A stretch of 64,000 bases of DNA, from contig NZ_JAOQNG010000010.1 of assembly GCF_025961225.1 (NCBI RefSeq), forward strand, positions 920,501 to 984,500. Reading direction: 5' to 3'. The notes beneath the pieces were generated by a model that was not told the DNA's origin, ran no database searches, and saw only the letters and a program-made list of their open reading frames with translations. Source of the DNA: Azospirillum canadense (GTDB taxonomy: Bacteria > Pseudomonadota > Alphaproteobacteria > Azospirillales > Azospirillaceae). The translations under genes were made by a program, and so were the position numbers. This document shows, piece after piece, positions 30,025 through 34,979 of this stretch; position 1 is the stretch's first letter; each line of letters begins with the position of its first letter.

Positions 30025-30128
30025 GGACGAATTGTCGGAAATTGTGATTTCGTTAACCAAGATGAAAGCCCGTTTCCGCTAACGTCCGCCCCTTCACGCA
30101 GGGCGTCTTGCCGAAGGGAGTCGCGCGG

Positions 30129-30824
30129 ATGGCACGCTGGATGGGCTTTCCTCTTCTGGGATTGGGGCTGTTGATCGGGCTGTCCGCCCCGGCACTGGCC
30201 GAAACGGCGGTACCTGCCTCGACGGCCCCGCCATCGGCCCTTCCCGTCGCCTGCGCGGGCGACGGATCCGCGCGGCGCTGCACCGCCTCGGCGGTCGAGG
30301 ACTTCGCGAACAACCGCGGCGGCCAGAGCGAACTCAGCCTCAACGCCGTCCGCGACGGGACCTGCACCACCCTCCACATCGTCTTCGACGGCCCCATCGC
30401 GCTCGACCAGCCGGTGACGCTGACCGTTGACGGCGCGCCGCCGCAGCGCTTCTACACGCCCGGCGCCCTTAGCGAACTGGCCCGTGCGCTCGACGATGGG
30501 AAACTCCCCGACGACGCGCCGCCGGAGTTCACGAGCTTTCTCCAGCAGGTGACCAGCGGTCGCGTGAAGGACTCCGACGCGGGTCCGGAGATGCTGACCC
30601 GCTTCGCCGCGGTCAAGGAGGCCCGCCGCGTGGGCCTGACCTGCGGGCCGATGGAACGCCTGCTGCCGCTGCTGCGGACCGGCCACACGGCACGGCTGGA
30701 ATTCCAGGTCGCCAACGGAACGGAGCAAAAAGTCTATCACTGGGTGCGGCTGGACAGCCGGGTGGTGACGTTGCGCGTCGATGACCTGCTGGCGTCGCTC
30801 GACCGGGCGATGCCTGGTTCCTGA
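30129..30824 (+). CDS. secreted/periplasmic protein of unknown function
   Basis: The 231-residue product has a clear signal peptide ('MARWMGFPLLGLGLLIGLSAPALA', shown in part; cleavage after Ala-24). The mature part has four Cys in two pairs ('CAGDGSARRC', then single ones in 'GTCTTL' and 'GLTCGP'), possibly two disulfides. A 'RFYTPGALSELARAL' block follows a short beta-rich stretch. I recognise no family. ATG 30129 follows aagggag. It may belong to the ABC transporter upstream, 105 bases away. Confidence 0.78.
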   Translation: MARWMGFPLLGLGLLIGLSAPALAETAVPASTAPPSALPVACAGDGSARRCTASAVEDFANNRGGQSELSLNAVRDGTCTTLHIVFDGPIALDQPVTLTVDGAPPQRFYTPGALSELARALDDGKLPDDAPPEFTSFLQQVTSGRVKDSDAGPEMLTRFAAVKEARRVGLTCGPMERLLPLLRTGHTARLEFQVANGTEQKVYHWVRLDSRVVTLRVDDLLASLDRAMPGS

Positions 30825-31785: not shown

Positions 31786-32232
31786 TCAGCCGAAACTGGA
31801 GGTCGGCGCCTCGGGCGCGGTCTGTGTCAGCAGCGTGGTCAGCCAGCGGAAGTCGTTGGACGCGCCGCCGGACTGCAAGGCGCTCTGCACCACCTGCATG
31901 GCCTCGTCCGCGTTGGACATCCGCGGGTCCGGCGTTTGGGCGTTCGCGTCCGACCCATCGTCGGCGGTGCTTTGGGCGAAGACGCTCACCGCGCCGATGC
32001 CAAGCCGATGCTGGACCGTGGACGACGTTCCGGTCGCCGCGGCCGCGACGTCTCCCAGCTCTGTCCCGCTGCCGCTCGAATCGCCGACACCGTTCAACTG
32101 CTCCAGCATCGCCGCGAATTGGCCGGCGAGTTCCCCCGCCTTCCGGGGCGCGCCCGTGCCTTTGCGCTCCAGAAGCTCTTCGGCCCGGATGCGCATCTGC
32201 TGGGAAGCATCGGCGTTTGCCAAGATCGACAT
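31786..32232 (-). CDS. hypothetical protein, 148 residues
   Basis: I do not recognise this gene. It begins 'MSILANADASQQMRIRAEEL', is soluble, low in aromatic residues and rich in Ala, Ser, Gly and Thr. A helical start is followed by a flexible middle. 'DEAMQVVQSALQSGGASNDF' near the end looks helical. The composition recalls small secretion- or flagellum-associated proteins, but no motif supports that. ATG 32232 has only an imperfect ribosome site. It ends seven bases after the phosphatase stop, on the opposite strand. Confidence 0.55.
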   Translation of the reverse strand: MSILANADASQQMRIRAEELLERKGTGAPRKAGELAGQFAAMLEQLNGVGDSSGSGTELGDVAAAATGTSSTVQHRLGIGAVSVFAQSTADDGSDANAQTPDPRMSNADEAMQVVQSALQSGGASNDFRWLTTLLTQTAPEAPTSSFG

Positions 32233-32421
32233 GGGACGGGAACCCTTGGAGCGTTCGGCAATCCTGGAAGGGTCAAGCAAACGCCGCGCCACCAACGCGC
32301 CGTGGAAAAACGGGGACTTCCCGGCGGGAGGCCGCCGTTACCCGGCAAAAATTGCCCTACGCCCCGGCAAAAACGGACCGGCGCGCAGGGAAAATTTTGA
32401 CGGGTGTGGGGTGGTGCTTCT

Positions 32422-33134: not shown

Positions 33135-33662
33135 TCACGTCGGCTGCCCGGGATGCTGGAACTCGATCCCGCCCGGTCCGCCGTTGCCGGGGCTGTTCTG
33201 GTAGGGCTTGTCGGGCATCTTCGGCTGCGGCAGCGCGTAGAATCGCGGCTCCCGGTCGTCCCACGACCGTTCGAAGGGCAGGCGCATCATCGGCTGCGTG
33301 CCGTTGCGCTGCGCCTCCTTCTGCGCCTCCTGGAGCTGTTCGGCCATGCGGCGGTCCCAGGGCAAGCGGTAGAGGTTCGGCGCGTGCTCCCACAGCAGGG
33401 TGAGGTAGATCGCCTCGTTCTCCACCAGTGTGGCGCTCAGCACCTTCGCCTCCTGGACGTGGGAACCCAGCCATTCCAGCGTGACCGGCTTCGCCCGGCC
33501 CAGCAGGGTCGCCGGGGCGGCATAGGCCGCCGGCAGCATCAGGGCGAACAATCCCAGGATGATCGCCCGCGCCATGCGGTTGCGCGCCCAGCGCAGCGCC
33601 GACAGCACCAGCAACAGCAGGACGATCGCGACAAAGCCGAATATGACGGTGAGGCTTTCCAT
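33135..33662 (-). CDS. two-helix membrane protein, third gene of ExbB/ExbD-like operon
   Basis: The 175-residue protein starts with two membrane helices ('VIFGFVAIVLLLLVLSALRW' and 'IILGLFALMLPAAYAAPATL'). A charged soluble part follows ('WEHAPNLYRLPWDRRMAEQL'), and the end is Pro/Gly-rich. I recognise no family. It lies 25 bases after the ExbD-like gene on the same strand, so it is probably an accessory part of that channel. The ribosome site is weak. Confidence 0.72.
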   Translation of the reverse strand: MESLTVIFGFVAIVLLLLVLSALRWARNRMARAIILGLFALMLPAAYAAPATLLGRAKPVTLEWLGSHVQEAKVLSATLVENEAIYLTLLWEHAPNLYRLPWDRRMAEQLQEAQKEAQRNGTQPMMRLPFERSWDDREPRFYALPQPKMPDKPYQNSPGNGGPGGIEFQHPGQPT

Positions 33663-33687
33663 GGGCGCACTCTCGAAAAAAGGCGGA

Positions 33688-34317
33688 TCAATTCTTTGCG
33701 GATCGAAGCGGCTTGAACACGGCGTTCAGGGATCCCGGCACCAGTTCGCCCTTTTCCGTCAGGTTGAAGCGGAAGGCCGTGACCTCCTCCCCTTCATGGT
33801 CCAGGCGGACGCGTGTGGCGGCGACGGTGGCGGCACCCGATTCGTTCTCCGTCTTCACGCGCGCGACGACCCGGACCCAGATGGGAAAGACATTCTCAAG
33901 ATTGCGGAACAGATGCACGTTGACCGTGTATTCGCCGGGAGGGATCCCCCGCGAATAGGAGGTTTCGAAATTGATTTCGGTCGGATCGGCGTAGGCGCCA
34001 AGGTCGTCGCGCAAAAGATTGAAGATCAGGCCCGATTTGTTGGAATAACCGACCGGCACGTCGCCCGGGGCCTGCACCCACAGGTCCACGTCGGTGCGCA
34101 GCTTGTCGTCCCAACGCGCCTCGATGATGACGTTGCCCGGCGGCTCCATTCCGGCTGCGGCGGAAGATGAGTTGTTCTGGTTGCCCTCCGTCTTCTTGGA
34201 TTCGTTGATGAAGGGCACCGCCAGCACGGCGCAGGCGACGAACCCGCAGAGCAGAAGCGTCAGCAGGTCGCGCGCGACGAGCACCCCGGTCTGGTCCTCG
34301 CCAAGGAAGTCGTTCAT
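33688..34317 (-). CDS. ExbD/MotB-like single-helix protein with DUF2135-like extracytoplasmic domain
   Basis: The 209-residue protein has a short cytosolic start and one membrane helix ('VLVARDLLTLLLCGFVACAV', 13-32). Asp-17 near its start is where ExbD, TolR and MotB carry the proton-binding Asp. The periplasmic part (about 60-205) is a beta-sandwich-like domain with 'ARWDDKLRTDVDLWVQAPGD' and 'PGEYTVNVHLF', similar in pattern to DUF2135/YfaP proteins. There is no TolR-like or OmpA-like peptidoglycan domain. Its start overlaps the stop of the ExbB-like gene by four bases. The pair should form a 5:2-type ion channel with an unusual output domain. Confidence 0.72.
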   Translation of the reverse strand: MNDFLGEDQTGVLVARDLLTLLLCGFVACAVLAVPFINESKKTEGNQNNSSSAAAGMEPPGNVIIEARWDDKLRTDVDLWVQAPGDVPVGYSNKSGLIFNLLRDDLGAYADPTEINFETSYSRGIPPGEYTVNVHLFRNLENVFPIWVRVVARVKTENESGAATVAATRVRLDHEGEEVTAFRFNLTEKGELVPGSLNAVFKPLRSAKN

Positions 34318-34979
34318 GGAGTGGCCTCGCCGCTCAGCGCGTTGTAGGCGGCGGCCTGCTGGGCCGCGAAGGACACGCCCTCGTTGGACGGGGACATGGT
34401 CGGGGACACCCGGCGCCGCGCGTGCGCCTGGTCCATGATCAGCGCGCAGAGCGAGGCGGTGGCCCCGCGCAGCAGTTGCAGGTTGCAGGTGGTCCAGAGG
34501 CAGAGCGCGCCGCCCAGCATCGTCGCGTAGATCGCCACACCCAGGCCGCTCGCCAGCGTGGTGACCATGGCGCCGGCTGACGAGGCGTTGCCGACCATGT
34601 CCGGCGTGATGTTGGCCGCGAATAGGCTGAAGCCCCAGGCGGTGCCGATCAGGCCCAGCATGCCCAGAGCGTTGGCAATGTGCTGAAGGTGCGAAATCCG
34701 CGAGAACATCCGGATTTCCAGCGCGCGCTCGCTTTCCACTGTGGACATGCGTCCGCCGCCGGACTTGGCGCGGTCAAGCTCCCCGCCGATCTTCCAGACG
34801 CGGTAGGCGGACATGACCAGGCCGATCAAGAAGGTCGTGGCGATGACCGCGGTCGCGACCGCGATCGGCCCCGTCAGAACGCGGTCGAGCCAGCCCTGGA
34901 TGTACAGGACCAGCACGAAGACCAGGGCGGTCAGGTTGAACGCGGTGAATTTTGCCTTGAGCAGCCACTGTTCTTCCAT
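34314..34979 (-). CDS. MotA/TolQ/ExbB-like proton channel subunit
   Basis: The 221-residue protein has two N-terminal membrane helices ('TALVFVLVLYIQGWL', 'IATTFLIGLVMSAYRVW'). A short loop and the MotA/ExbB core follow: 'LGMLGLIGTAWGFSLFAANI' and 'MVTTLASGLGVAIYATMLGG'. These are the two helices that line the ion path in this family. ATG 34979 follows AGGAGG. It is the first gene of a three-gene operon. It is shorter than MotA and lacks its large cytosolic domain, so it should not be a flagellar stator. Confidence 0.85.
   Translation of the reverse strand: MEEQWLLKAKFTAFNLTALVFVLVLYIQGWLDRVLTGPIAVATAVIATTFLIGLVMSAYRVWKIGGELDRAKSGGGRMSTVESERALEIRMFSRISHLQHIANALGMLGLIGTAWGFSLFAANITPDMVGNASSAGAMVTTLASGLGVAIYATMLGGALCLWTTCNLQLLRGATASLCALIMDQAHARRRVSPTMSPSNEGVSFAAQQAAAYNALSGEATP

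Follow-up and report, generated by a model that had tools for sequence, protein, structure and literature searches.

What might a small proton-channel operon drive when the partner protein encoded beside its pore subunit shows no match to the familiar output domains? This question is raised by three consecutive open reading frames (ORFs) on the minus strand between positions 33135 and 34979 of a 64,000-nucleotide stretch of Azospirillum canadense DNA (contig NZ_JAOQNG010000010.1; the whole stretch is called the window below), in an Azospirillum-type genome of 9.73 Mb. The three encode proteins of 221, 209 and 175 residues, which we call B, D and C; the stop codon of B and the start codon of D share four bases (34314–34317), and 25 bases separate D from C. 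Our answer, to which we give a probability of roughly 0.6, is that the trio makes up a motor of the 5:2 type that works on the cell envelope and has, besides an output head of its own, a third subunit. Annotation by itself says little: in protein scans with Pfam, NCBIfam, PADLOC and PHROGs none of the three was above a curated cut-off or convincingly named, and a promoter and terminator search gave nothing above chance.

That B, D and C are conserved genes and not chance ORFs follows from their being found together in 78 of 80 loci, these being the best 80 of 246 named-genome loci found with a profile of D and the set to which our per-locus conservation counts refer. The order B-D-C on one strand is seen in 77 of them, and a single locus (L170, 8692–10633) has the order B-C-D. 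The two incomplete loci are L149, in which the contig starts at the N-terminal end of D, and L106, where the C of the genome lies on another contig. With start codons chosen by script, 72 of the 77 B-D-C loci show an overlap of B with D, and 54 one of D with C. The sequence-only reading had proposed a single three-gene unit from the overlap and short gap in the window, and the gene order in the 80 loci bears this out. With the refinements given below, both the original observation and its interpretation stand, since neither of the two outcomes named in advance as refuting them (an ordinary TolR or MotB as second protein, or a trio not kept together in relatives) was seen.

The trio is kept together well beyond the Rhodospirillales. 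In 41 related genomes (G020 being the nearest relative of the window in the first genome scan), B and D each have a match in 15 and C has one in 14. The trio is carried by 12 of the 25 genomes of the genus, the window's own among them, and seven have a second copy, about 23–26 kb away in six and on another contig in the seventh. Wider samples gave D matches in 37 of 289 genomes of the class and in 20 of 398 of the phylum; 16 of the latter were left after removal of two large VIT-DUF2135 proteins (G448, G463), one other protein (G351) and a match to the helix region only (G487). The named loci come from Azospirillum, Skermanella, Tistrella, Mesorhizobium, Geminicoccus, Thiobacillus, Granulosicoccaceae and others, including some metagenome-assembled genomes that are doubtfully labelled. 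In 21 more divergent loci, two of them from one genome, profiles partly built from this same set find D and B in 20 each and C in 15, and the aligned D proteins are 28–32% identical to that of the window. Among plasmid records only seven were found, all from Azospirillum; the PLSDB tables list no gene at this position, and several of the records are wholly unannotated. Two D copies per record are seen in NZ_CP012915.1 (L071) and six other Azospirillum replicons.

Judged by its sequence, B is a member of the MotA/TolQ/ExbB proton channel superfamily. All 56 members of its alignment (55 of the 79 B loci plus window B) match PF01618 (MotA_ExbB) at E ≤ 0.1, and window B lies on either side of the cut-off of 22.9 bits, with 21.1 bits (E 2.7e-4) in the protein scan and 23.1 bits in the whole-genome scan. 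Compared with solved structures, the B profile best matches MotA (8gqy, E 4.7e-6), followed by 8vvn, deposited as “MotA/TolQ/ExbB proton channel domain-containing protein” (E 0.013), and TolQ (E 0.041), with weak matches to PomA, ExbB and ZorA (E 0.12–0.8, ZorA at 0.8). As we read the profile alignment, T113 and T153 line up with the pore threonines of TolQ; T153 is invariant in all 79 covering loci, and G109, G112, T113, G116 and G145 in all 78 that cover them.

Hydropathy of the family alignment gives four membrane segments in B, both pore helices among them, while for the window sequence by itself pore helix 1 does not reach the threshold. The two pore helices originally claimed for B are thus present on the family alignment, with T113 and T153 invariant. 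The label “ExbB-like” holds at the level of the superfamily, but the four segments are closer to MotA than to the three of ExbB, and the best structure match is also MotA; because of these four hydrophobic segments, the alignment suggests a MotA-type layout. The same genome has separate genes that pass the NCBIfam cut-offs, namely one tolQ, one exbB and two motA, so B is not just the genome's version of one of these. Below the cut-offs there are one TolQ/ExbB-like and one PomA-like gene. The genome also encodes an unnamed MotA_ExbB-type protein of 401 residues (G000:C1:1155531–1155782; locus L185, 922–2127, minus strand), which matches no NCBIfam model at E 0.001.

D has a single membrane helix with an aspartate, Asp-17, that is kept in 79 of the 79 covering loci; hydropathy and the structure model agree on this helix, as had been claimed. 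The remainder of the protein is predicted to be a beta-rich head. Nine of its residues (D76, D78, R103, D104, D105, G107, D111, N116 and E118) are invariant in all 80 loci and unchanged also in 25 more divergent sequences. The head looks DUF2135-like in sequence and TerD-like in its predicted fold. For DUF2135, which the sequence-only reading had suggested, the better evidence is the reverse search, in which the D profile picks up two VIT-DUF2135 proteins (E 1.9e-9 and 4.4e-4) through their C-terminal domain; Pfam matches to PF09906 are weak, being found in 24 of 64 D members at E ≤ 1 (best 0.0018) and not in window D. ExbD/TolR and OmpA are absent from the eight Pfam families matched by these 64 members at E ≤ 1, and the model best matches TerD and calcium-binding sandwiches, so there is no sign that D is an ordinary TolR or MotB. 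The absence of TolR, MotB, OmpA, TonB or TolA among the fold matches listed for D and C excludes nothing.

The predicted local distance difference test (pLDDT) values of the D head model lie in blocks of 83–96 almost throughout, with 75 at the C-terminal end. In the VIA structure comparison, TerD comes first (3ibz, Z 10.7, root-mean-square deviation (rmsd) 4.6, 143 residues aligned), with two further TerD structures below it (2qz7, Z 9.0, rmsd 3.8, 132 aligned; 2kxt, Z 7.9, rmsd 4.2, 138 aligned); DUF4425 appears first at Z 6.7 and otherwise lower. The best Foldseek match is a calcium-bound protein (2lge, E 8.6e-4). TerD proteins are a tellurite resistance family with calcium binding, and in our reading the DxD motif and acidic loop follow in a similar order in D. 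The invariant acidic loop of the head probably binds a metal such as calcium.

Such a loop could also belong to a device without any mechanical output, namely a proton-conducting channel or sensor in which metal binding by the D head, together with C, gates the flow of ions and reports the state of the envelope. The invariance of the loop in 80 of 80 loci, a calcium-bound protein and TerD among the fold matches, and the lack of a conserved partner gene beside most loci all fit such a device. However, the Asp and both Thr positions are kept, and the known relatives are regarded as motors (PMC9389320), which leaves a pure channel or sensor quite unlikely.

C is modelled with two helices followed by a small domain, which together with hydropathy matches the two-helix protein with a soluble tail that had been described from the sequence. 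Fold matches of this domain are weak and, in our eyes, mostly OB-like, such as eIF5A in VIA (Z 6.2, rmsd 3.5, 71 residues aligned). DUF4131, which we take to be the N-terminal region of ComEC, is weakly matched by 25 of 64 C members at E ≤ 1 (best 5.4e-4). The C terminus carries a short proline-rich stretch. This stretch, the position of C directly behind D in 77 of 80 loci, and a putative lipoprotein gene after C in part of the family (see below) are what would be seen in a Ton- or Tol-like energiser, where D only gates and C is the force transducer that reaches an outer-membrane partner via its proline-rich tail. The anatomy of C argues otherwise. TolA, TonB and one vWA transducer family have one helix with a conserved histidine (PMC12204202), whereas C has two membrane helices and no conserved histidine, since at any of the first 60 positions it occurs in at most 6 of 64 members. 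The tail is short, and no TonB/TolA domain is found among the Foldseek and VIA matches listed. We consider a transducer role of C rather improbable.

Instead, we picture B, D and C as one inner-membrane complex of the ExbBD/TolQR/MotAB kind with its output in the periplasm. A ring of B, with five copies by analogy, would enclose two D helices. The path of the protons would lead over Asp-17 of D, around which T113 and T153 of B would be placed, and their passage would rotate the D dimer relative to the ring of B. D's own head, a predicted beta-sandwich of the DUF2135/TerD type with its acidic loop, would then hand this motion on, while C, with two helices and a small domain that we place in the periplasm, may sit on the output side and either dock the head or relay its motion. 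That B and D should form an ion-driven ring-and-axle motor is argued by analogy with ExbBD, TolQR, MotAB and GldLM (PMC9389320, PMC12505986). Most likely the complex would serve to transmit force in the cell envelope, in the way Tol-Pal does. Of this picture, the sequences themselves show that B is of the superfamily, that the Asp and Thr residues are there, that the trio is conserved and that pore and output modules have a boundary; the folds are predictions, while force from proton flow, stoichiometry, rotation, metal binding, orientation in the membrane and the roles of C and of the whole complex are inferred.

Comparison with the known systems shows how the trio both resembles and departs from each. 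Like ExbBD-TonB and TolQRA, it has a MotA/TolQ/ExbB pore subunit with matching threonines, a one-helix partner with an invariant aspartate, and a third operon gene; unlike them, it has four segments in place of three in B, a D head that matches neither ExbD nor TolR, a two-helix C without the histidine, and no TolB, Pal or receptor gene conserved beside it (neighbour clustering, 80 loci). It shares with MotAB/PomAB the four-segment pore layout, and MotA is the best solved-structure match of B, but the cytoplasmic part of B is short (about residues 60–100), D lacks an OmpA-like match, and flagellar genes, already noted as absent in the first reading, are not found among the neighbours scanned with Pfam. 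GldM carries beta-rich periplasmic domains, as does D, yet there are no gliding or type IX secretion genes among the trio's Pfam-scanned neighbours. GldLM and AglRQS are proton-driven motors with non-flagellar roles (PMC9389320). Also comparable are TolQ-like motors of unknown function whose pore helix bears a vWA output domain; like D, these set the output domain directly on the pore-inserted Asp helix (PMC12204202). Because they are published, a head carried by the axle is not in itself a new idea. They differ from the trio in the vWA fold, in their predominantly heterologous pairs and in that no C-like subunit is described in the section of that paper which treats them.

Several points weigh against the reading of a proton-driven motor with a TerD-like head. 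The use of protons over sodium is assumed. The D model is least sure exactly at the acidic loop (pLDDT 72 at residues 101–110). Between the TerD rows of the VIA comparison stand other titles, namely 2qng (the protein of unknown function SAV2460, Z 9.4), 9a6r (8.4) and 7jtk (8.2), and no TerD chain is among the best 50 Foldseek rows for the D head. Homology of D to TerD by sequence was rejected, HHalign being negative against both 8 and 64 TerD sequences, and we therefore keep the TerD likeness as a fold resemblance only; PF02342 (TerD) has no match anywhere in the window genome. For C, the model reaches a pLDDT of 78 and a predicted template modelling score of 0.56, and the OB-like call is weak, with a best Foldseek E of 0.067. 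For the lipoprotein to which we now turn, a search of 33 genomes that carry D gave matches in no more than 6, the window genome not being among these, and its lipobox was recognised by eye.

Of the 21 divergent loci, 7 encode this putative lipoprotein immediately behind C, and none of the genes beside the 80 named loci encodes it. The lipobox cysteine is invariant in all seven, and all six that were scanned match DUF3108_like (E 1.4e-6 to 0.12), with two reaching its cut-off of 27 bits (28.8 and 27.0). With a lipoprotein model built from three of the seven, the same protein is found in L208–L210, from another part of the phylum (E 1.6e-40 to 1.8e-28), along with B, D and a divergent C (E 1e-5 to 0.0027). 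The three-gene picture is correct for the window, but some relatives add this fourth gene, whose product is possibly a partner of the trio there; since a DUF3108-like putative lipoprotein follows C in these relatives, we see a link to the envelope. At L235 (1946–4812, minus strand) three DUF3108-like lipoprotein-type genes stand in tandem behind the trio. The four-gene version is also seen in a small AT-rich alphaproteobacterial genome (L068, 2401–11201), where the neighbours look to us like mreB, mreC, mreD, a penicillin-binding protein gene and rodA.

How the parts of such a motor are divided can be followed within Azospirillum, where trios share a chromosomal slot. In the window, L098 and L108 it is bordered by YajQ on one side and hemerythrin, CBS-domain and oppF-like genes on the other. 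The hemerythrin and the YajQ domain (DUF520) were assigned by Pfam, and the CBS-domain and oppF-like genes are what we take these neighbours to be. The trio is flanked by oppF, hemerythrin and YajQ in L099, L102, L105 and L107, by oppF, CBS and YajQ at L070, and by oppF and YajQ at L109; L111 shows YajQ only, and L110 CBS only, with oppF placed elsewhere. Between the window and L107–L111, B is 34–39% and D residues 1–45 are 44–51% identical, as against 83–92% for D residues 59–209 and 71–91% for C. For L107 alone the values are 34, 47, 92 and 88%, and between L107 and L108 they are 84, 95, 91 and 89% for B, D 1–45, D 59–209 and C. DNA identity shifts near the D linker given in the table. The tree distance between the window and L107 is 2.36 for the pore half (B and the D helix) and 0.12 for the output half (the D head and C). 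The output tree joins L099 with L107 (support 99; 97/95 in a careful 18-taxon tree), a grouping that the pore data reject in the approximately unbiased (AU) test (p-AU 5e-63), and the output data reject a clade of L107–L111 (p 0.004). Because of the identity contrast, 34–51% in the pore half and 71–92% in the output half, and because the half-trees conflict, the motor core, that is B with the D helix, seems to have been swapped as one cassette within a single chromosomal slot.

Azospirillum sp. TSO22-1 (L069, L070, L106) bears traces of both pore types. At its native slot an intact C still follows an 87-residue B-D fusion remnant, the first part of which is 73% identical over 55 residues to B of the L107 type, while another contig has a window-type B-D pair without C, its B being 65% identical to window B. 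These traces, and the rejection by the pore data of the L099–L107 pair of the output tree, speak against the alternative that no exchange took place and that B and the D helix changed at a very high rate in the A. brasilense/A. rugosum lineage. Yet the 60-taxon pore tree places that lineage beside L107–L111 (ultrafast bootstrap 85) with a branch length of 1.29 substitutions per site, and the 18-taxon mixture-model tree leaves its attachment among L110 and others unsettled. Synonymous sites are uninformative here: they are near saturation, so that the third-position test cannot separate replacement from very fast divergence. Nor do the 18-taxon output data reject the window clade with L106 (p-AU 0.083), and the clades tested were named after the trees had been seen, L099 with L107 being taken from the output tree; these results, like the saturation, count against exchange. 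On balance we find very fast divergence doubtful as the explanation. Going a step further, we suggest tentatively, at somewhat less than even odds, that the trio represents a new class of proton-driven envelope motor with a calcium-binding, TerD-type axle head, in which the pore (B and D helix) and the output (D head and C) are exchangeable cassettes, and the pore has been swapped under a near-unchanged output in Azospirillum.

The neighbourhood of the trio offers no common partner. When the ORFs of the 80 loci were clustered, with close relatives merged into 51 groups, ABC-type ATPases were found beside the trio in 17 groups at varying distance (names read from sequence), and no other family was conserved in more than 8; two clusters of opposite-strand shadow ORFs are seen in 49 and 16 groups. 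Near the trio in the window, the proteins at 31786–32295 and 30108–30824 have no Pfam match at E ≤ 1. Defence genes had been reported as absent, and PADLOC agrees for the 10 neighbours scanned (the CBS-domain gene is not among them): seven have no match, and three ABC-type matches are read as ATPase cross-matches. This bears on a further possibility, that the trio is an anti-phage system of the Zorya type. ZorAB has a MotA/MotB-type core, but ZorA has a long tail that B, with its 221 residues, lacks. The 5:2 core of Zorya is likewise MotA/MotB-like (PMC11890865), and the B profile very weakly matches ZorA at the E value given above. However, Zorya models are unmatched in PADLOC for the trio and the 10 neighbours; D and C have no PADLOC match at E ≤ 1, and B has one at E 0.027 to a candidate model (PDC-M63B). 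The steady chromosomal slot is a further point against Zorya, which we hold to be very improbable. Defence, flagellar and Ton roles find no support among the scanned neighbours or in the anatomy of C.

Table. Positions of the genes and parts discussed; window coordinates unless a locus is named.
Feature	Position	Strand	Basis or remark
Gene B, MotA/TolQ/ExbB-superfamily subunit (predicted pentameric channel ring)	34314–34979	minus	PF01618 matches
B pore helix 1, about residues 104–121, with T113 aligned to the threonine of TolQ FGTVWG	34617–34670	minus	family hydropathy and profile alignment to TolQ
B pore helix 2, about residues 142–164, with T153	34488–34556	minus	hydropathy
Gene D, axle subunit: one membrane helix and periplasmic beta-sandwich (predicted)	33688–34317	minus	ORF and structure model
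D membrane helix, modelled residues 10–45, with Asp-17 (codon 34267–34269)	34183–34290	minus	model and hydropathy
D linker, module boundary where identity to sister lineages jumps	34111–34183	minus	sliding identity; conflicting trees
D periplasmic domain, residues 60–209, DUF2135-like (sequence), TerD-like (predicted fold)	33691–34140	minus	sequence and model
Gene C, two membrane helices, small predicted OB-like domain, proline-rich tail	33135–33662	minus	sequence and model
C soluble domain, residues 67–147, weakly OB-like	33222–33464	minus	VIA and DUF4131 matches
TSO22-1 87-residue B-D fusion remnant	L070, 7320–7583		precedes intact C

Among the papers listed by a search of the open-licence PMC literature there was no description of the B-D-C operon, nor were the output domain of D and C found reported for motors of this kind. 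Published accounts describe relatives with unknown function and many structural variants (PMC12505986) and state that further motors driven by the proton motive force await discovery (PMC12204202). The known 5:2 motors are few, and the trio is spread over several proteobacterial groups. What is new here is the contrast in identity between pore and output in matched slots, which offers a natural chimera: the apparent exchange within the slot would locate the point at which motor and load separate to within tens of residues. With a separable boundary of this kind, the coupling of rotation to different loads may be testable by module swaps in a harmless soil bacterium.

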